Virus record (IMG/VR): IMGVR_UViG_3300027896_000142
Location: 1-31,744 of that record
DNA: 31,744 bases
Direction: 5' to 3' (one strand)
Source: a virus
The stretch's first letter is position 1; every line of letters begins with the position of its first letter. Position numbers and translations under genes: made by a program. This document shows, one piece after another, positions 6,443 through 31,551 of this stretch. Under the pieces are notes generated by a model. That model did no database searches. It saw only the letters and a list, made by a program, of their open reading frames with translations, and was not told where the DNA came from.

Positions 6443-7536
6443 TCTATCCTCAAAACAAACGACTGCTTATTTAATGGCACTGTGACGGCCTGGTTATTAA
6501 ACGCGACTGTAACGGATTGATTATTAAGCGGGATAACAATAGCCGGTTGGGAATAAAAAAGCCTCTTAACGAGTGACTCGATAAGGTTTACTATATCGGA
6601 TATTATCCGGATGATTCTGGCTCTGCGAACCACAACCTCTGTGATTGCCATAGTATCGTGAGCGAATTTGACGATAGTCCCGATTGTAGACAGGATTTTC
6701 AGAATACTATCTGCTATATTGACGACATTGGCCGACAGGTAAACTGCCCGCGCTCTTTTTAAGATAGCCTCTGTTATAGTGATTGTATCAGCGACCAGTC
6801 TTATTGACCGTAATCTGCGTGCTATGGCTTCAGTGACAGCTACGGTATTGGAGACCAGTTTGACTAACCATTCCTTACGTACCATAGCTTCCGTTATGCC
6901 TATGGCATTGGCAACCAATCTGATAGCGCGGTCAATTCTGGTGATGACTTCTGTGATGCCAACAGTATTAGCCACCAGCCTTATCGCCCTATCTATACGG
7001 ACAAAGGCTTCAGTTATTCCTATCGCATTGGCAGCAAATTTTACTACTCGGTATGCTTTGGTGAGGGCTTCGGTTATTCCTACGGTGTTCGGTATCAGGC
7101 GAATTGATTTTGCCAGTCTCACAAACGCTTCCGTTATATTGATAGTATTGGCCGGGAAACGTATCGACTTGCCCAACCTAACCAATGCCTCGGTTATACC
7201 AATCGTGTTAGTAGATAACCTGACAGCTCGATACCTACAAACAAATGCTTCCGTTATCCCTACTGCGTTCAATGGGAATCTTACTGACCACATCCTGCGT
7301 ACAAAGGCTTCTGTTATGGCCAGGGTATTAGCCGCAAATTGCACGATAGCGGTAATAACTCCCAGTGTTACAAAAGTCTGTCTTTGCTGTGGCTGTTCTG
7401 GTTCGCCCCAGAAATGGGATAGCACCGCATAGTAATTACTAAATGACGATGCTATCCAATCAGCAACAGCCTCTCCCCAGGTGGGCATATGGACAGGCTG
7501 CTGCTGTTGAGGCGGCGGTGGATACCAAATAGGCAT
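6439..7536 (-). CDS. 20-residue repeat protein in the tail/fibre region
   Basis: A 365-residue protein in three parts. The N-terminus has a Pro/Gln-rich segment (YPPPPQQQQPV, 5-15) and a Trp-rich stretch. Residues about 63-327 form thirteen head-to-tail units of almost exactly 20 residues with consensus (R/K)(A/S)IRL.ANT(V/I)GITEA.VR. The tail (about 333-363) has three short 9-residue repeats (PLNNQSVTV, AFNNQAVTV, PLNKQSFVL). The register stays constant to the residue through about eleven units. It lies among fibre genes, so a fibre shaft or tail appendage is a reasonable inference. I do not recognise a named family. The long plus-strand ORF opposite it is a shadow produced by the repeat. 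Confidence 0.85.
   Translation of the reverse strand: MPIWYPPPPQQQQPVHMPTWGEAVADWIASSFSNYYAVLSHFWGEPEQPQQRQTFVTLGVITAIVQFAANTLAITEAFVRRMWSVRFPLNAVGITEAFVCRYRAVRLSTNTIGITEALVRLGKSIRFPANTINITEAFVRLAKSIRLIPNTVGITEALTKAYRVVKFAANAIGITEAFVRIDRAIRLVANTVGITEVITRIDRAIRLVANAIGITEAMVRKEWLVKLVSNTVAVTEAIARRLRSIRLVADTITITEAILKRARAVYLSANVVNIADSILKILSTIGTIVKFAHDTMAITEVVVRRARIIRIISDIVNLIESLVKRLFYSQPAIVIPLNNQSVTVAFNNQAVTVPLNKQSFVLRIE
6556..7356 (-). repeat. Thirteen degenerate 60-bp tandem repeats inside a CDS
   Basis: The 60-bp unit encodes the 20-residue repeat. Units differ strongly at the DNA level while the encoded ITEA core and unit length are kept, so the array is old and under protein-level selection. 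The last two or three units (low coordinates) are the most diverged. Confidence 0.85.
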
Positions 7537-21582: not shown

Positions 21583-21972
21583 CTATATAAATTCATCCGC
21601 TGAAGGGATATAACAGCCTTCTTCGGCTGCCCATCTCATTATCTGTTCTATGTAATCAGTAAATTCTGCGGTGCTGAGTTTTGTAGTGCTGCGCACCGTT
21701 ACCAGTCCTGAGTCCTCATGGAGTTTCAGGAACTTAAATTTTAAGGCTTCGTGCATTTCTTCTGAGCTATACCCGAAGTGATTACCCAGTATCTCAATGA
21801 TAACGCCCCAGTAGTACCTATTCTGGCTAAGTGTTCGGTTGTGCCTTTCCTTTTGAAGGATTAACTCTATCCGTTTACCTTCAAGGCTGGCCAGATAGAC
21901 AAGGTATTTTTCAGGTGAATCGAATCGAATGTGTCCCTTTTTTATTTCCCCGTGAAATACAAAACTGTTCAA
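21583..21972 (-). CDS. NinB-like recombination protein
   Basis: A 129-residue protein. RTLSQNRYYWGVIIEILGNHFGYSSEEMHEALKF is the diagnostic stretch of the NinB/Orf family: 'R..sQNryyWg.i...a...G.s.eemHe.lK'. It is followed by KLSTAEFTDYIEQIMRWAAEEG, also typical. The lambda homologue binds single-stranded DNA and assists RecBCD-independent recombination. It overlaps the HNH gene by 4 nt (ATGA). The 84-nt gap to terS holds no gene. Confidence 0.8.
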   Translation of the reverse strand: MNSFVFHGEIKKGHIRFDSPEKYLVYLASLEGKRIELILQKERHNRTLSQNRYYWGVIIEILGNHFGYSSEEMHEALKFKFLKLHEDSGLVTVRSTTKLSTAEFTDYIEQIMRWAAEEGCYIPSADEFI

Positions 21973-22667
21973 ACGCTTATCATTTCAAGTTGTTTATTCA
22001 TAAAGGCCAATATTGCCTTCCCTGCATAAGTCCCGCTGTGCTTTATATCGCATTCTTTGCAAAGCGTCCGGCCATTCGATAGTTCAAATCTCAAATCAGG
22101 GAATAATGAGAATGGTTTAATATGATCGGCTACTAACCTTCCGCCGCGAATGTGGCATATCTGGCAAGTGTAATTATCCCGTTCAAATACTGCCCTGCGC
22201 CACTGTTTCATTTCAAGCGAGTTTCTAATCTGAGAGTTTATCGCTGTTTTCCCGTCCTGCCAGTTCCAATGTTTAGCACCTCGCAAATTCGGCTGAGGTT
22301 TCCCCTTAAACGCTAAACCCATCTTACGGCTTACCTCTTCCCTGTTTTCAACGAAGTGCTTTATGGGTTTCCCCTTCTTAGCCAGTGATAACGCTTTCCG
22401 ATGCTCAATGGTTAAGGGATTGCCCTTTCTTGCTTGACTGATTTTATCCCGAACCCCTTGAGTCCTCGGTATGCCCTTCATGGCAGAGGGGTGGCCAGCA
22501 CGCCCTAACGCCAAGCCCTGTAATTGTTTATCTGTTGCCTTTTTCCCAATCAGAGTTTTGCCATAACAAACGCTACTACAATATAACTGGTTACGTGTTG
22601 CGCAATCCTTAATAGCATTGAATTGCTTACCGCATACCAGGCAATTCTTGTAACGTGCTGTCCTCAC
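21969..22667 (-). CDS. HNH homing-type endonuclease with zinc finger and NUMOD repeats
   Basis: A 232-residue protein with a GTG start. The N-terminal CLVCGKQF...CSSVC looks like a zinc finger. Three NUMOD3-like segments follow (GHPSAMKGIPRTQ, ARKGNPLTIEHRKALS, AFKGKPQPNLRGAKH). The C-terminal HNH domain has W-RRAVFERDNYTCQICHI, VADHIKPFSLFPDLRFELSN and TLCKECDIKHSG. This is the standard structure of free-standing phage homing endonucleases. It sits inside a broken ParB-like gene, so it probably entered by homing. Confidence 0.92.
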   Translation of the reverse strand: MRTARYKNCLVCGKQFNAIKDCATRNQLYCSSVCYGKTLIGKKATDKQLQGLALGRAGHPSAMKGIPRTQGVRDKISQARKGNPLTIEHRKALSLAKKGKPIKHFVENREEVSRKMGLAFKGKPQPNLRGAKHWNWQDGKTAINSQIRNSLEMKQWRRAVFERDNYTCQICHIRGGRLVADHIKPFSLFPDLRFELSNGRTLCKECDIKHSGTYAGKAILAFMNKQLEMISV

Positions 22668-24259: not shown

Positions 24260-24848
24260 AGTCTTTATCTCCTGCTCCCCGGGGCCCGCGGTAATTAAGA
24301 CCCACCAACAGGTCAGTGATTATCACCAGGTTGACATTGCGGCCGTTGAATTCTCGGCAGTAGCGGATAATAAAGGCCCTCAATGCGTCGTCGGTTATGT
24401 GCCAGCTGGCATTGGTGGATTGATGTGGCCTGACACCATTGTGATAAGTAGCCGCCAGGGCGCCGCTATCGATGTAGGTCTGTATCCTCTTGTGATCTAC
24501 TCCGAGTATCTCCGCGACGTCCATTTTGGTAAACCACCCATCCCGGGACCGTAAGGATAACCCCAATCTAACAACCCTATTTTTCACTGAATGAACTGAA
24601 CGCTTCATCATTTTCGCCACTTCTGGGAGAGGGAATTGGGGGACCAGCTCGCGCAATCTCTCATCCTCTTCTTCCAACCAGTTTACCCGGCCGGTTAACT
24701 TACCCACGCCGAGCACATGAACCTTCCCCACGACAGCATGGTAGCTCACCCCCAAGGCGGCGGCGATCTCCATCTTGGAGGCGTTCGTGCCCCGGTAATG
24801 AATCCGTACATAGTCCAGTTCGCCGTCAGTCCAGTTGTGCTTAACCAT
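24252..24848 (-). CDS. DNA-binding protein with two Myb/SANT-like and one MerR-like HTH
   Basis: The start chosen is the ATG at 24848 (198 residues, MVKHNWTDGELDYVR). GGGAG is 4 nt upstream, and the position overlaps the end of the previous gene; the longer frame adds 21 codons without a site. Domain 1 (NWTDGELDYVRIHY...ASKMEIAAALGVSYHAVVGKV) and domain 2 (NWLEEEDERLRELVPQF...VAKMMKRSVHSVKNRVVRLG) are tandem GcrA/Myb-like three-helix units. A third HTH (FTKMDVAEILGVDHKRIQTYID) is MerR/excisionase-like, and the C-terminus is unassigned. It is probably a transcriptional regulator of the early-to-late switch, from its position near the end of the early operon. Confidence 0.75.
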   Translation of the reverse strand: MVKHNWTDGELDYVRIHYRGTNASKMEIAAALGVSYHAVVGKVHVLGVGKLTGRVNWLEEEDERLRELVPQFPLPEVAKMMKRSVHSVKNRVVRLGLSLRSRDGWFTKMDVAEILGVDHKRIQTYIDSGALAATYHNGVRPHQSTNASWHITDDALRAFIIRYCREFNGRNVNLVIITDLLVGLNYRGPRGAGDKDYA

Positions 24849-25008
24849 CCAGCTCCCATCTCTTATCGAGCATGGCGTTGTATTCTCTGCAATAGCGATA
24901 CCACCACTCAACCAGCTCCGGACCTTCCGGTAATAAGTTGGTACTCAGTTCACGTTTACACCACGGCTCGAAGATTTGCCAATGTGCTTTTATAAAGTCA
25001 AGATTCAT
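24841..25008 (-). CDS. 55-residue small protein, duplicated copy 1
   Basis: Starts MNLDFIKAHWQIFEPWCKRE and continues LLPEGPELVEWWYRYCREYNAML. It is homologous to the ORF at 26281-26475. The ATG at 25008 is preferred (GGAG upstream inside the HNH gene) over the TTG/GTG starts further out. It overlaps the HNH gene upstream. Short, aromatic-rich and helical; unknown function, but consistently placed after the same HNH gene in both copies. Confidence 0.65.
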   Translation of the reverse strand: MNLDFIKAHWQIFEPWCKRELSTNLLPEGPELVEWWYRYCREYNAMLDKRWELDG

Positions 25009-25240
25009 GCTCAATAACTCCGTGGAATTTAGAATGACATCGCCCACAAATTAGCCGGCAGTTTTCGGCTGTGCTTTGGCCTCCGTGTGATTTGAAGGTA
25101 AGATGGTGCAGGCTTAAACCTCTCCAATCCGGCAGTTTCCCGCACTCCTGGCAGAATCCCCCATGCTCGGCCAGTAACTTAGCCCTCAATTCATCCTCTG
25201 AGCGGAGTTGTGCGGCCCGGCGGGTACTGATGCGCTTCAT
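24979..25240 (-). repeat. Direct repeat, copy 1 (262 bp)
   Basis: This 262-bp block matches 26446-26707 with about 20 mismatches by hand count and no gaps (about 92%). It covers the HNH gene and the first codons of the following small gene. Same orientation, 1.2 kb apart. Confidence 0.92.
24998..25240 (-). CDS. Small HNH endonuclease, copy 1
   Basis: An 80-residue protein. FCQECGKLPDWRGLSLHHLTFKSHGG then NCRLICGRCHSKFHG gives the HNH core (His-His, Asn, His) and a CxxC/CxxC zinc-binding frame. Its basic N-terminus (MKRISTRRAAQLRSEDELRA) probably contacts DNA. It differs from copy 2 by only two residues (K/R and A/T). It sits at the end of VRR-NUC in a 4-nt ATGA overlap. Small HNH proteins near packaging or replication genes can nick DNA in phage metabolism; the exact role is not shown. 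Confidence 0.88.
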   Translation of the reverse strand: MKRISTRRAAQLRSEDELRAKLLAEHGGFCQECGKLPDWRGLSLHHLTFKSHGGQSTAENCRLICGRCHSKFHGVIEHES

Positions 25241-25545
25241 TTCGTTAGCGTCTCCTGGATATACGGCCAGTCAGCCGGTTTCCAAAGGTAAATTTCCGCG
25301 CCAGTCATGCTTAATTCGCATTTCCATATCAACTGGTCGTCTGACATTTTTCCTTTATCCGATTTGAGTTCAAACAGCAGGAGCCGCCCGTCTTTTGTAG
25401 CGATGTAGTCCATTAGCCCTTTATGTCCGGATAACGGGGTATACCAGGAGCCATCCTTGCGGCGGGCCGGGCGATAATGCGCCCACAGCCAGCCTTTTAA
25501 TTCCAGTAAATCTTCAACGGCTGAGGCGAATTGCTTCTCGGTCAC
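25237..25545 (-). CDS. VRR-NUC domain nuclease
   Basis: A 102-residue protein. The PD-(D/E)xK core is visible: GHKGLMDYIA (Asp46), LLLFELKSD (Glu59 and Lys61) and KMSDDQLIW (Gln71), the VRR-NUC arrangement with a Y-x-x-P-x-G-like lead. The C-terminus is PADWPYIQETLTK. These small enzymes cut Holliday junctions or flaps and are common in phage replication modules. Overlaps on both sides are ATGA-type. A decayed copy of the same gene lies at 27237-27365. Confidence 0.9.
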   Translation of the reverse strand: MTEKQFASAVEDLLELKGWLWAHYRPARRKDGSWYTPLSGHKGLMDYIATKDGRLLLFELKSDKGKMSDDQLIWKCELSMTGAEIYLWKPADWPYIQETLTK

Positions 25546-26288
25546 AGGCTTAGCTCCGCTTGTTTTTCAGTGGATTGTGCGGGGAAATCAAATTCAAAGG
25601 ATTCCTGCATACATCGTTTAGCGGCGATCTCGCAGTATTTTTCCTCAATTTCAATTCCAGTTGACATCCGGTTTGAAGATTTCGCAGCAACAAGGGTTGT
25701 CCCACTTCCGCAGAATGGGTCTAAGATTATCGTGCCTCTATCAGATAACCAATTAATTAACTTGATAGCAATCGGCACACTCTTTTCTGACGGATGGAAC
25801 TCATGTTTACCATAATAAAAATACTCACGGATTATATTTGGCTGATTCTTTGGGATACGCTCTTTGAAATCCGTGTGCTTCCCACGAACTATAGCTATCC
25901 AATCAGTTTGGTTACGGAATGGGCTACCCATGCCCACCATTTCCCTATCATGTATTATAACTTGGCTAACACGCCGCTGGTCGTAATAGTCCTCGGCAGA
26001 TTTGCCTAACACCTCATCATATATTGCCGCCGTTCTCCAGTCACACCATAGACACCACGGTGCTGATGGCTTAGATGCCCGCTGGAGTTCCTTGAAAATT
26101 ATTTCCAGCCAGGTTTCAAAGAATTGGGAGTCGGTACGAGAAGCAAATCCGTTACTAAAACCTCCCGTAAATGAAAAAGGTGGGTCAGTCAATACTAAAT
26201 CCACCTTTACATCAAGTGCAGGTAATATCTCACGGCAATCACCGTGGATTATTTTTACCCACTTATCCTGATAATAAGGCTTAATCAT
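25542..26288 (-). CDS. DNA methyltransferase, beta-type (N6-adenine or N4-cytosine)
   Basis: The start chosen is the ATG at 26288 (248 residues) because GGAGG lies 6 nt upstream; the open frame continues 23 codons further. Motif IV DPPF (35-38) comes before motif I DPFCGSGT (190-197), so the order is permuted as in beta-class enzymes. The HPSEKSV segment (165-171) is also typical. The target-recognition region lies between about 45 and 160. No restriction partner is nearby, so it is an orphan enzyme, probably protecting phage DNA from host nucleases. Confidence 0.9.
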   Translation of the reverse strand: MIKPYYQDKWVKIIHGDCREILPALDVKVDLVLTDPPFSFTGGFSNGFASRTDSQFFETWLEIIFKELQRASKPSAPWCLWCDWRTAAIYDEVLGKSAEDYYDQRRVSQVIIHDREMVGMGSPFRNQTDWIAIVRGKHTDFKERIPKNQPNIIREYFYYGKHEFHPSEKSVPIAIKLINWLSDRGTIILDPFCGSGTTLVAAKSSNRMSTGIEIEEKYCEIAAKRCMQESFEFDFPAQSTEKQAELSL

Positions 26289-26475
26289 CGGCTCCCTCCG
26301 GCGGCTCCGGCGCCACAATCTCCCTCTTCTGGTCAAGCATGGCGTTCCAGGCCGCACAATATTTATAAAACCACTCGACCAGCTCAGGGCCTTCCGGTAA
26401 TATCAAAGAGTGAGTTTCAGCCAATACCCAGGGTTTGAAAATTGGCCAATGTGCTTTTATAAAGTCAAGATTCAT
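26281..26475 (-). CDS. 64-residue small protein, duplicated copy 2
   Basis: Starts MNLDFIKAHWPIFKPWVLAE and continues LILPEGPELVEWFYKYCAAWNAML. It is a paralogue of 24841-25008 with a longer C-terminus (APEPPEGADD). GGAG stands 9 nt before the ATG, and it overlaps the HNH gene at its start and the methyltransferase at its end. The paralogues are much more diverged than the adjacent HNH copies. Confidence 0.65.
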   Translation of the reverse strand: MNLDFIKAHWPIFKPWVLAETHSLILPEGPELVEWFYKYCAAWNAMLDQKREIVAPEPPEGADD

Positions 26476-26707
26476 GCTCAATAACTCCGTGAAATTTAGA
26501 ATGACAGCGCCCGCAAATTAAGCGGCAGTTTTCAGTTGTGCTTTGGCCTCCATGTGATTTGAAAGTAAGATGATGCAGGCTTAACCCCCTCCAGTCCGGC
26601 AACCGTCCGCACTCCTGGCAGAATCCCCCATGCTCGGCCAGTAACTTAGCCCTCAATTCATCCTCTGAGCGGAGCTGTGCGGCCCGGCGGGTGCTGATGC
26701 GCTTCAT
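26446..26707 (-). repeat. Direct repeat, copy 2 (262 bp)
   Basis: Partner of 24979-25240, same orientation. It ends exactly at the HNH start codon, beyond which the two copies differ completely (VRR-NUC end versus methyltransferase end). The duplication edge therefore falls at the gene boundary. Confidence 0.92.
26465..26707 (-). CDS. Small HNH endonuclease, copy 2
   Basis: An 80-residue protein almost identical to copy 1 (two substitutions). It has the same HNH core SLHHLTFKSHGG...NCRLICGRCHSKFHG and cysteine frame. It follows the second methyltransferase in a 4-nt overlap. Most of the DNA differences to copy 1 are silent, so both copies appear to be under selection to stay functional. Confidence 0.88.
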   Translation of the reverse strand: MKRISTRRAAQLRSEDELRAKLLAEHGGFCQECGRLPDWRGLSLHHLTFKSHGGQSTTENCRLICGRCHSKFHGVIEHES

Positions 26708-27240
26708 AAGTTGGCCCCGGTTAAATCCAAGTGACTATTTATCTTGCACTCGACAGTTACAATCGTGTCGTTATGCGCTCGACCGTGGCAGACAAGCAAT
26801 ATTTCAATAATCTCAAATCCGTGTGTTTTTCCCATGCCAATCGAGTTCCAACCACAGGAAATAGCCAACCCACCAGGAATTATTAGCGGAGATATGACAT
26901 CGCGTAAATCACTATAAAAGTTTGTTGAATGTCGGGCAGTTATTTCCCCAACTCCGGCCTCTGCATAACACTCCCGCATTTGTTGATATGAGTATGGTGG
27001 ATCGAAAAGAACCCCTTTATACTGACCTGATAATAGGCGTAGAAATTCCAAAGAATCTAAATGATATTTGGCGGGTCTTTCGGGATTGAGGTCATTGGTT
27101 ATTTCCGCAGGACTTGCCATGCCTGCAAATGGGTCAATCCATCCCTTGCCATCCCCAACATAATGTGTAACCAATTCAGCAATAGGTGGGATTAAGAACG
27201 TCCACTTATTAGGCATGGCCCACACGCGGTTTATTTTCAC
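26704..27240 (-). CDS. DNA adenine methyltransferase-like protein
   Basis: The start chosen is the GTG at 27240 (178 residues), which overlaps the upstream stop as GTGA, with AGGAG further upstream. Motif I WIDPFAGMASPAEITNDLNP and motif IV VLFDPPYSY (DPPY) are intact. The SAM-binding fold continues with PGGLAISCGWNSIGMGK. The C-terminus ends IVTVECKINSHL. This is the second orphan methyltransferase. It lies between a decayed VRR-NUC gene and HNH copy 2. Confidence 0.82.
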   Translation of the reverse strand: MKINRVWAMPNKWTFLIPPIAELVTHYVGDGKGWIDPFAGMASPAEITNDLNPERPAKYHLDSLEFLRLLSGQYKGVLFDPPYSYQQMRECYAEAGVGEITARHSTNFYSDLRDVISPLIIPGGLAISCGWNSIGMGKTHGFEIIEILLVCHGRAHNDTIVTVECKINSHLDLTGANL

Positions 27241-27365
27241 TTCGTTAAGGTCTCCTGGACAAATTCCCAATCCTCCGGCCTCACGATCCTGGCCGGGGCC
27301 ACCTTATTGAGCCGGTCTAACCAGGCGAGTTGAATTATTTGTTGCATAAACTGAGCTTCGGTCAT
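27237..27365 (-). pseudogene. Internally deleted VRR-NUC copy (42 codons)
   Basis: Starts MTEAQFMQQIIQLAWLDRLN and ends RPEDWEFVQETLTK. The ends match the intact VRR-NUC at 25237-25545 (MTEKQFASAVEDL... and KPADWPYIQETLTK), but the middle 60 or so residues with the catalytic Asp, Glu-x-Lys and Gln are gone. It still has ATGA and GTGA overlaps with its neighbours, so it may survive as a coupling peptide. It is best read as a remnant of the duplicated block. Confidence 0.75.
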
Positions 27366-27760
27366 GACGACCTGCCATCGAAAATAATTAACGCGCTCGG
27401 GAATGGGCAGTTAAATTTAGCACCGCCAAATTTTAAGCGACCTCGGATGAACCGGATCTCAGTAGCTTTCATACAATAGTCATGCCACCAAATTGTGTCC
27501 GTCCGGCTCGGAATCAAGAAAACTACCAATTTACCTTTCTTTGATTCTGCGTATCCTTTCGCCAGCCAACGCCCTACCTCGTGGCCATAGGGCGGGTTGC
27601 AGTAGGTCCGGCTCCCCCATTCTGACTCCAAAGCGTCGACGCCCGTGTTGTTCAACGGGCATGGGTCATAATTAAAATGAAATTCTTTATTGAGGTCCGT
27701 ATATAAACTGATCGGCGTAGGCCAATGCGGAGATTGTGAAGAGAATAAAATCCTGTTCAC
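27362..27760 (-). CDS. Phage Dam-like DNA N6-adenine methyltransferase
   Basis: A 132-residue protein with a GTG start preceded by GGGGG. HWPTP near the N-terminus and YDPCPLNNTG...SRTYCNPPYGHEVGRWL are the signature of the phage Dam family, with the catalytic NPPY at 55-58. LVVFLIPSRTDTIWWHDY and FIRGRLKFGG follow as in the family. It methylates adenine in short sites, which can hide phage DNA from restriction. This is the third methyltransferase in the early operon. Confidence 0.92.
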   Translation of the reverse strand: MNRILFSSQSPHWPTPISLYTDLNKEFHFNYDPCPLNNTGVDALESEWGSRTYCNPPYGHEVGRWLAKGYAESKKGKLVVFLIPSRTDTIWWHDYCMKATEIRFIRGRLKFGGAKFNCPFPSALIIFDGRSS

Positions 27761-27828: not shown

Positions 27829-28625
27829 CGCTGCACCATGTGGGCATACTTCCCTTGCTTAAATTTGTCGCCGGGGTATACCTGCTCGTTTGGTTTATTC
27901 TTGATTCTGTAATTTTGCCGGGCAATCTCGCCGTCAAGGAATTTCTCTATACCCCTTGCTAAAAATTCCCCGATGGTCCACCTGTGTTTGAAGTAATACG
28001 CAGGGGAGAGTACAATCTCGGCGTAATTACTCATAGCTTTGCAAAGTTCCTCGGCAGAGTGTTCTTTTAAGCTCGCGCTGATAGCCGATTGAAACTTATT
28101 TGTCAGCTTTTGGTGAGCCATGATACCCAGCGAATTCCAGTGAATAAATATGTCTTTTGATATAGTGTCTTTTGTATTGTCTTTTGATAGTGTCTTTTGA
28201 TTAATATGTAGGGCATTATCACTTTTGATAACGGGTATTATCGCTTTTGATAACGATTCATTATCACTTTTGATAATGACATTATCTGTTTTGATAATGG
28301 GCGCGGGGTTATCAGTTTTGATAATGCCAAAAGGAATCCACGCTTCAAAATCCTTCTGCAGAGCATAAGAACCGTTGTCAGTTTTGATAATGTTGTGCGT
28401 TATCAGTTTTGATAATGCACGGCAGATGTTAGGCTTATCCAGGCCGGTGAGCTCCACGAACTGCGCCAGGGTGATCAGGTCGGCTTTCTTATTCCAGCCG
28501 TAGGTCTTGCGGACCACTGCGTCCATGACCTGCCGGACCTCGCCGGGGATTCGGAACTTACAAAGCTGCTCCATGATCTCCGTCGCTATCCTGATGTGTC
28601 CATTTTCAAGTTGAGGATTCGCCAT
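27825..28625 (-). CDS. Phage replication initiator (O-type)
   Basis: A 266-residue protein. The N-terminal winged-helix (NPQLENGHIRIATEIMEQLC, VRKTYGWNKKADLITLAQFVELTGL, NICRALSKLITHNII) is the phage_rep_O domain that binds the origin. The middle (about 85-140) holds IIKTDN/IIKSDN repeats encoded by the DNA iterons. The C-terminus (about 170-240, KLTNKFQSAISASLKEHS...YYFKHRWTIGEFLARGIEKFLDG) resembles the helicase-loader-contacting region of O/DnaD-type proteins. It recruits the host helicase to the origin within its own gene, as in lambda. The start has no unusual features and lies 3 nt after the HNH gene. Confidence 0.9.
   Translation of the reverse strand: MANPQLENGHIRIATEIMEQLCKFRIPGEVRQVMDAVVRKTYGWNKKADLITLAQFVELTGLDKPNICRALSKLITHNIIKTDNGSYALQKDFEAWIPFGIIKTDNPAPIIKTDNVIIKSDNESLSKAIIPVIKSDNALHINQKTLSKDNTKDTISKDIFIHWNSLGIMAHQKLTNKFQSAISASLKEHSAEELCKAMSNYAEIVLSPAYYFKHRWTIGEFLARGIEKFLDGEIARQNYRIKNKPNEQVYPGDKFKQGKYAHMVQR
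28141..28415 (-). other. Replication origin inside the initiator gene: seven iterons plus AT-rich segment
   Basis: Seven 16-bp copies of the imperfect palindrome TTATC-(A/G/T)(C/G)-TTTTGATAA: 28216, 28238, 28261, 28282, 28309, 28375 and 28400 (starts). The first five start 21-27 bp apart, about two helical turns. Next to them, 28141-28210, is an AT-rich tract with four further GTCTTTTGAT-like elements, a candidate unwinding element. The layout equals the lambda origin (iterons in gene O, then an AT-rich part). Confidence 0.88.
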
Positions 28626-28628
28626 CGT

Positions 28629-29030
28629 TTAACCCGCAAGTTTATCATGGAATTTTCTATGGCAGGATCGGCATAAAACTATTATGTCTGCCAGCCTTTC
28701 ATAACCTATATTGGCATATGATTTGTGGTGGGCATGGATCTCACCGCCGGTATTACACACCTCGCACTTGCGCCTGGCTCGTTTGTACGCTTTACTGCGC
28801 AGAATTTTCCATGGTTCGCTGCCCAAGTATGTCATGTAGTCAGTCGATGCCTTACGTTTGATATCCTCATTTACTGCGTCCACCATCTCATCAGGATTTA
28901 ACTTTGCATGGCACATAATCCAAAGCCACCAAAAAGAACTACCTCCCTCAGTACCCTCTGGCAAGCTGTCCATGGCCGCCCGCATCCTATTAAGACGATC
29001 ATCCACAACGGGTCCACTTAGTTTAGGCAT
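28629..29030 (-). CDS. HNH endonuclease with N-terminal domain
   Basis: The start chosen is the ATG at 29030 (133 residues, MPKLSGPVVDDRLNRMRAAM). AGGAGG stands 3-5 nt before it; the longer open frame begins inside the leader hairpin. The N-terminal half is helical and unassigned. The C-terminal HNH part has CEVCNTGGEIHAHHKSY and IIVLCRSCHRKFHD, with all metal- and zinc-binding residues. It is the first gene after a promoter-hairpin leader, directly ahead of the replication gene. Confidence 0.85.
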   Translation of the reverse strand: MPKLSGPVVDDRLNRMRAAMDSLPEGTEGGSSFWWLWIMCHAKLNPDEMVDAVNEDIKRKASTDYMTYLGSEPWKILRSKAYKRARRKCEVCNTGGEIHAHHKSYANIGYERLADIIVLCRSCHRKFHDKLAG

Positions 29031-29131
29031 ATCCCTCCTGGAATAAAAATACCCCGGCACGACGCGGGATGCAGCCGCTTCCATATTGCTATGTTCATGC
29101 CGGGGCGTTTGTATTCTAAGATTTCAGACAT
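29018..29131 (-). CDS. 37-residue leader ORF across the attenuator hairpin
   Basis: Starts MSEILEYKRPGMNIAIWKRL and ends GGICLN. It runs through both arms of the hairpin at 29052-29105 and stops 11 nt inside the HNH gene. A ribosome translating it would open the hairpin. The start overlaps a four-codon ORF (ATGCAGTATGTCTGA) with AAGGA upstream. It is suggestive of leader-peptide control, but could be chance. Confidence 0.4.
   Translation of the reverse strand: MSEILEYKRPGMNIAIWKRLHPASCRGIFIPGGICLN
29042..29105 (-). terminator. Terminator-like attenuator hairpin in an mRNA leader
   Basis: On the minus strand CCCCGGCA (from 29105) pairs with TGCCGGGG (to 29052) around a 38-nt loop and is followed by TATTTTTATT. 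It lies between a likely promoter and the first gene of the early operon, so it is better read as an attenuator than as a simple end. Confidence 0.7.
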
Positions 29132-30347: not shown

Positions 30348-30958
30348 TAGCTGAACCTCGTTTGAGTCCGTTCCACGGGTGTGATTAAAACTCCGGGCAC
30401 CGGCAACTTATCGTACTTGTGCTTGGCCTTGATCTTGGCCATGTCCGGGCTGCAGAGCTCGCGCGGGACCAGGTCCGGGTCCCTTATCTCATAGTTCCAG
30501 CTTTGGATAACTGACGTGGTGCTCATATTCCCCCGCACCATCTGACCGACCGGCGCGATAATGGCCGCCGCAGCCTCGTAGACCTCTCCGGTAGTTTTGC
30601 ACTCCTCGATTTTCTTGGCCTCTTCCTGCATCTGCATCTCAAGTAAAGCGTCGGCCTCGGCCTTCTTTTTCTTGTAGTAAGTTAAGAGCGCCTGGTCTAA
30701 CCGGCTGACCCCGAGCTGGACTCTTGACTGGACGGGTTTATATTTGTCGTCTACCGCTTTCCCTCCGTCCAGGAAGGGTTGTTTTTCCTCTTTCCGTGAC
30801 TCTTCCAGGGAATTGACGATCTTTTTCCCAATTCCCAAGAGATCGGACATATTGGAAAGTTGGCTATCATTCTCAATGACAATTTCCTCAATTAACCACG
30901 GGAAAAATTCAGTCTCCGCGCGGCGAACTAATAATTGCAGCGTGTTTATCTCATTCAT
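30347..30958 (-). CDS. Phage protein of the recombination/single-strand annealing neighbourhood, function unknown
   Basis: A 203-residue helical protein. LEESRKEEKQPFLDGGKAVDDKYKPV then a long coiled coil (LDQALLTYYKKKKAEADALLEMQ) and a C-terminus DPDLVPRELCSPDMAKIKAKHKYDKLPVPGVLIT. This combination ('eesRk.eK.P.ld.gk.id..fkp', then 'vP.ell.pD..kik', then 'iPGv.i') recurs in phage proteins encoded near RecT/ERF-type annealing genes. The biochemical role is not known to me. It overlaps the next gene by 1 nt and the HNH gene upstream by 4 nt. Confidence 0.72.
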   Translation of the reverse strand: MNEINTLQLLVRRAETEFFPWLIEEIVIENDSQLSNMSDLLGIGKKIVNSLEESRKEEKQPFLDGGKAVDDKYKPVQSRVQLGVSRLDQALLTYYKKKKAEADALLEMQMQEEAKKIEECKTTGEVYEAAAAIIAPVGQMVRGNMSTTSVIQSWNYEIRDPDLVPRELCSPDMAKIKAKHKYDKLPVPGVLITPVERTQTRFS

Positions 30959-31551
30959 TTATCACCCCTTCCCGCTGGAGATAACTGCCATTGAAGTAGT
31001 TTGATTTGCTTAGTTTGGTTTTCGATTAAATCTTTCAGTTCTTGAATTTGCTTGTTACGACCATCAGCCAAGCCTTTTGTATAACCATCACGGTATCCCT
31101 TACTATGACCAAGAAGATGTGCCCCGCCTGTCGTCAATTCAAGATTCTCGATTCGGTTATCAGTTTTGATACCGTTCTTATGGTGGACGAATTCCCATGA
31201 TTGGAGACATCTGCCAAGATGTTTGGCCATTACTAACCGATGTTCTGCGACATAACTTCTACCTTTAGCCATCGGAGAGAAGAAATCATCCTTAGGGAGA
31301 TATACCCCTACATATCCACGATCGAGAGCGTAAATCCCACCTTTCCATTGAGAACTATTTGTCCCGGTCATTGCGCAGAGAAGGCATATCTCATTCCTTG
31401 GCTTGCCTTTTACTATCCTTATCCATCTTTCCTTTTTGCAAGCTATGCAAGCATGCCAAATAAACCGATCAGTACTTTTGAACCCAATCTCTGCCCCTCG
31501 TTTTATCTCGCCTAACTCGTTACCGGCACGTTTGATTAAATCCTGCAGCAT
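30955..31551 (-). CDS. HNH homing-type endonuclease
   Basis: A 198-residue protein. An N-terminal CIACKKERW...CLLCA zinc-binding pair is followed by QWKGG and the HNH_3-type core AEHRLVMAKHLGRCLQSWEFVHHKNGIKTDNRIENLEL. The C-terminus is a coiled coil (KQIQELKDLIENQTKQIKLLQ). This is the common design of free-standing phage homing endonucleases. It sits between an alanine-repeat gene and the recombination-neighbourhood gene, with 1-nt and 4-nt overlaps, so insertion did not break the operon. Confidence 0.92.
   Translation of the reverse strand: MLQDLIKRAGNELGEIKRGAEIGFKSTDRFIWHACIACKKERWIRIVKGKPRNEICLLCAMTGTNSSQWKGGIYALDRGYVGVYLPKDDFFSPMAKGRSYVAEHRLVMAKHLGRCLQSWEFVHHKNGIKTDNRIENLELTTGGAHLLGHSKGYRDGYTKGLADGRNKQIQELKDLIENQTKQIKLLQWQLSPAGRGDK

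Follow-up and report, generated by a model that had tools for sequence, protein, structure and literature searches.

Standalone VRR-NUC proteins of bacteria and phages are dimeric and cleave four-way junctions (PMC4103454). In lambdoid phages, orf/ninB is located upstream of the interchangeable rap or rusA, encoding structurally distinct resolvases (PMC4118853), and phage resolvases take part in recombination, in concatemer formation or in the debranching of DNA that precedes packaging (PMC3485210). Genes that were duplicated and then diverged have been described within, for example, Paenibacillus larvae phages (PMC4168068). The stretch of DNA analysed here (the window) is the IMG/VR record IMGVR_UViG_3300027896_000142, a linear sequence of 31,744 bp from an uncultivated virus. 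Its layout is siphophage-like, with tail, capsid, portal, TerL and TerS genes, a weak match to NinB, small overlapping genes and replication protein O, and an array of nuclease and methyltransferase genes forms the variable recombination/methylation cassette of this genome.

The intact VRR-NUC of the array shares with the standalone phage resolvases (PF08774; stNUC, saNUC and psNUC; PDB 4qbn and 4qbo) a single domain of ~100 amino acids, the D-ExK-Q site, the fold and a location in the replication/recombination region; it differs in that its sequence is only distantly related to theirs, and in being coupled to an HNH gene and present in duplicate, with one copy gutted. The lambdoid orf/ninB and rap/rusA region (PMC4118853) is similar in having replication protein O, NinB, an interchangeable resolvase and many small overlapping ORFs, but here the predicted resolvase is a VRR-NUC, NinB adjoins the terminase genes, and methyltransferases and an HNH duplication have been added. 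Duplication and divergence within one phage are shared with the Paenibacillus larvae phages (PMC4168068); here, unlike there, they concern a nuclease block and come with a deletion remnant and an apparently homogenised tract. The components are known and their arrangement is new, and it represents ordinary phage mosaicism, unusually well preserved, not a new system.

All genes of the array are encoded on the minus strand, in the order Dam, 42-codon VRR fragment, MTase 2 (MT2), HNH, small ORF, MTase 1 (MT1), VRR-NUC, HNH and small ORF. The upstream neighbour (27362..27760) is a Dam-family N6-adenine methyltransferase of 132 aa (Pfam PF05869, E 3.5e-16; phrog_111). All frames are open and all junctions are start/stop overlaps, mostly ATGA or GTGA. 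The original prediction had given this transcription order, a twofold occurrence of HNH plus small ORF (262 bp, about 20 mismatches), two amino-acid changes in the 80-residue HNH and a 42-codon fragment retaining only the first and last VRR segments. All four were borne out, the repeat being 263 nt with 20 mismatches, the changes K35R and A58T, and the retained segments positions 1-14 and 72-101 of the VRR-NUC family.

The intact VRR-NUC gene (25237..25545) encodes a predicted Holliday-junction resolvase of 102 aa. In an alignment of 24 sequences G43, D46, E59, K61 and Q71 are invariant, which includes the catalytic D...ExK...Q pattern, and the AlphaFold2 model (pLDDT 92.7) was matched by Foldseek with prob 1.00 to the FAN1 VRR-NUC domain, VRR_NUC 4qbn, RecU and archaeal Hjc. 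When the phage protein alone was scanned with Pfam, PF08774 gave no match, so that the family assignment rests on relatives, profile and fold: a relative in locus L132 (52%) passes PF08774 (35.5 bits, cut-off 23.8), and a profile of VRR relatives matches FAN1 at E 0.005 and 4qbo at E 0.03. Relatives in viral contigs reach 53% identity, and none were found in the search of bacterial genomes. Since the phage carries NinB, and a VRR-NUC in place of RusA, this protein most likely acts as the Holliday-junction resolvase of the phage, as its modelled fold suggests. It would resolve recombination intermediates and remove branches from concatemers prior to packaging, a task that falls to RusA in the related phage L092.

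The 42-codon ORF (27237..27365) is a VRR-NUC remnant, i.e. an internally deleted gene, still in frame, of which the first helix and the C-terminal end are left, as judged from the profile, shuffled sequences and a DNA repeat. Positions of about 15-71, with all the catalytic residues, are absent. Against the family profile the remnant scored 15.2 bits, whereas the highest of 5000 shuffled sequences scored 10.4; in pairwise alignment with the intact VRR, none of 5000 shuffles reached its score. Its best match among 63 VRR sequences was the VRR of the phage itself (72, against 56 for the next). Also at the DNA level the two VRR 3' ends constitute a 43-nt repeat (74% identical), with an offset of exactly 2000 bp. 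The offset at the HNH genes is 1467 bp, and the difference of 533 bp corresponds to the length of the MT2 gene once its 4-nt overlap is subtracted. In one copy, MT2 is thus located precisely where VRR and HNH meet. MT2 itself (26704..27240, GTG start) is a phrog_11619-type DNA methyltransferase (E 4e-35) with 38 viral relatives, of up to 72% identity.

Downstream of each VRR gene lies an HNH endonuclease gene of 80 codons, copy A (26465..26707; PF01844, E 6.6e-10) behind MT2 and copy B (24998..25240; PF01844, E 1.2e-9) behind the intact VRR-NUC. Both retain the zinc cysteines (two C-x2-C pairs) and the H..N..H motif residues of PF01844, and the HNH protein is a predicted second nuclease beside the VRR-NUC. 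Overlapping the HNH 3' end is a small ORF, of 64 aa in copy A (26281..26475) and 55 aa in copy B (24841..25008); the two are 64% identical. The repeat comprises 388 ungapped nt (24853-25240 and 26320-26707), starts exactly at the HNH start codon and holds 67 mismatches, 47 of which are in the last 125 nt (~38%, about 62% identity). A changepoint at small-ORF codon 12, equalled in none of 2000 permutations, delimits a high-identity tract (7.6% mismatch; 24978..25240 in copy B, 26445..26707 in copy A) that covers the HNH gene and the first codons of the small ORF. The HNH pair has a dS of 0.43 and a dN/dS of about 0.03, which supports strong purifying selection on both genes, and codons 13-52 of the small ORF have a dS of about 1.75, a saturated estimate. 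The small ORF was without a match in the Pfam, NCBIfam and PADLOC scans, and copy B gave one weak PHROG match of unknown function (E 0.005). A helical hairpin was weakly predicted for it (AF2 pLDDT 73, a low-confidence model built from two sequences). We found no significant relatives of the small ORF in an alignment search of the viral contigs and all fetched loci, and none of the HNH protein, used alone as query, in the viral contigs, nor in a search of plasmids. In mycobacteriophages (L241 and others) an HNH gene about 40-44% identical adjoins Erf-like recombination genes, and its second pair of zinc cysteines is altered (CGHGTTGCHG).

The nearest informative genome is that of L092 (TerL 74% and NinB 88% identical). 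Flanking genes on both sides are conserved between the two phages, and the interval between them in L092 contains a DnaB-like ATPase, RusA (phrog_34, E 2e-7) and then an MT1 homologue; VRR, HNH and small ORF are all absent from it. The original prediction had called for a search for single-copy versions of the block, and these were found in part: L132 and L014 share with the array a VRR-NUC followed by an overlapping small HNH gene, in single copy (frameshifted HNH in L132), but both pairs lack the small ORF. Constant co-occurrence of the small ORF with HNH does not hold outside this phage genome, since the small ORF was found in nothing else that was searched. L130 carries a VRR (53%) without a matching HNH, and in L343 the order is different (HNH, replication-O-like gene, MT1, VRR). 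HNH-like ORFs were present near 14 of 89 VRR ORFs by a motif search that misses the frameshifted HNH of L132; 11 of these belong to another, less closely related HNH type, and two represent the same L014 locus. The VRR-HNH pairing is thus occasional, and VRR, HNH, MT1 and replication-O-like parts are interchangeable cassettes. None of the relatives searched, a set that may lack nearly identical records, had a duplicated block or an intermediate state.

We consider it probable that an old block duplication, insertion of MT2, loss of the VRR core, later conversion of the HNH tract and a role of VRR-NUC as resolvase jointly explain the locus. A VRR-NUC/HNH/small-ORF block would have been duplicated in tandem, long enough ago for strong divergence of VRR and small ORF, and gene conversion between the copies would later have re-homogenised the HNH tract. 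The spare, redundant resolvase gene would have lost its core by a clean in-frame deletion that left a 42-codon frame. The ends of this frame still overlap Dam and MTase 2, so that translational coupling along the operon would have been kept. The block duplication proposed originally thus stands insofar as VRR, HNH and small ORF are all present twice, and falls short in that the divergence is uneven and the block not of one age. The proposal that one copy gained a methyltransferase and lost its nuclease core is supported by the exact position of MT2 and the absence of the core. As to the HNH copies being either selected or recently converted, the low dN/dS is in line with selection and the identity contrast points to later homogenisation. 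In this way 2.5 kb of DNA would record several steps of cassette evolution: resolvase-type exchange, duplication of a block, a methyltransferase inserted precisely at a start/stop overlap, an in-frame deletion of the core of a nuclease that had become redundant, and homogenisation of an HNH tract beside a diverged small ORF.

Between the copies, similarity is far higher in the HNH gene and in small-ORF codons 1-12 than in the VRR ends or in the distal small ORF. A single duplication of uniform age, in which the HNH tract is merely under stronger selection and gene conversion played no part, would agree with the HNH dN/dS and with the synonymous contrast between HNH and distal small ORF, which is marginal (p 0.02 by Nei-Gojobori counts, 0.23 by same-amino-acid codons). 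Stronger constraint on HNH could indeed account for part of the identity contrast. Yet codons for the same amino acid differ far less in HNH (15/76) than between VRR and remnant (11/16; p = 0.0002, in a comparison that depends on a gapped alignment of 42 codons), and identity drops sharply both at small-ORF codon 12 and at the HNH start codon, where the 43 nt of the VRR 3' end contain 11 mismatches and the initial 101 nt of HNH only two (p 3e-5). Moreover, these 101 nt hold only two of the 20 mismatches (p 0.03). The uneven divergence is thus more in keeping with gene conversion that acted later on the HNH tract than with a single recent duplication, and we regard a uniform age as rather unlikely. 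Mobility is common among HNH genes, three more of which are present in the phage, and the repeat starts exactly at the HNH start codon with HNH as its most similar part, all of which would agree with a small mobile HNH plus small-ORF cassette that inserted again behind another gene, the VRR fragment being an unrelated older remnant. This is unlikely, as the VRR 3' end is repeated alongside (with an offset that MT2 explains exactly) and VRR is followed by HNH in L132 and L014 as well. The much greater divergence of the small ORF, compared with HNH, also indicates that such a unit did not move as a whole recently. An HNH-carrying transposon, intron or intein was rejected as well: neither bounding terminal repeats nor intron or intein borders were found around the HNH repeat, whose ends coincide with gene boundaries.

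Three DNA methyltransferases adjoin the nucleases and MT1 matches type II MTase profiles, as might be expected of a phage-borne restriction-modification or defence system. However, the VRR-NUC has a Holliday-resolvase fold and no PADLOC match, the HNH protein matches a type IV model only via its generic HNH domain, and the array nucleases gave no match to restriction-nuclease families beyond generic HNH. Nor are the nuclease-methyltransferase pairings kept in relatives, which have methyltransferases without these nucleases and nucleases without methyltransferases. We have set this reading aside as very improbable. Chimeric assembly or a misplaced repeat must be considered for a metagenome contig judged from its sequence, but the copies differ throughout (67/388 nt), the open frames are joined by start/stop overlaps, and the array is flanked on either side by genes in synteny with L092, so that an artefact is highly improbable. 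Next to the favoured history of duplication and conversion, there is a slim chance that HNH and the overlapping small ORF are a functional pair (a nuclease with a partner for specificity or control) of which two versions are maintained. Conversion and selection would then keep HNH the same while the distal small ORF diversifies, giving one nuclease two modes of targeting or control, and the VRR remnant might be expressed as a mini-protein. If conversion holds, the locus offers a testable case of one near-identical nuclease with two diverged partners.

MT1 (N6_N4_Mtase; 25542..26288; PF01555, E 1e-22) is located between both copies and, like MT2, is low in GC (MT1 GC 43% and GC3 41%, MT2 GC 44% and GC3 40%, neighbours GC 45-54% and GC3 52-65%). 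Without MT1 and MT2 the array reads as a plain tandem repeat of VRR (remnant in one unit), HNH and small ORF, which supports the block duplication and suggests two methyltransferase arrivals. Methyltransferase insertion may therefore have happened twice. On the other hand, MT1 lies directly upstream of an overlapping VRR in L305, so that it need not be a late insertion and may be an old neighbour. MT1 is also mosaic relative to L092 (4375-5049), L298, L305 and L326: its first 37-46 residues are 74-84% identical, a C-terminal motif is about 50-57% identical to several relatives, and the middle, where target recognition probably resides, is unrelated, a pattern suggestive of recognition-domain swapping.

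Elsewhere in the window the three further HNH genes (21969-22667, 28629-29084 and 30955-31551) are unrelated to the two of the array, bringing the total to five in 31.7 kb, and one of them has a weak NUMOD3 match. A predicted protein encoded at 6626-7340 has repeats spaced about 60 bp (xxITEAxVR motif) and is probably a structural repeat protein, and twelve-base tandem repeats (GGCGGCAACCCT / GGCGGCATCCCT) at the extreme contig end (31592-31735) encode an Ala-Arg-Asp/Val repeat. For the host there is only a hint, in that TerL relatives were found in environmental viral contigs and in L210 (JAFGHL010000054.1), which is binned as Dehalococcoidia and has a TerL that is 75% identical. Finally, several direct repeats of ~18 nt (TTATCA[GC]TTTTGATAA) within the replication protein O gene (28200-28430) resemble lambda-type origin iterons.
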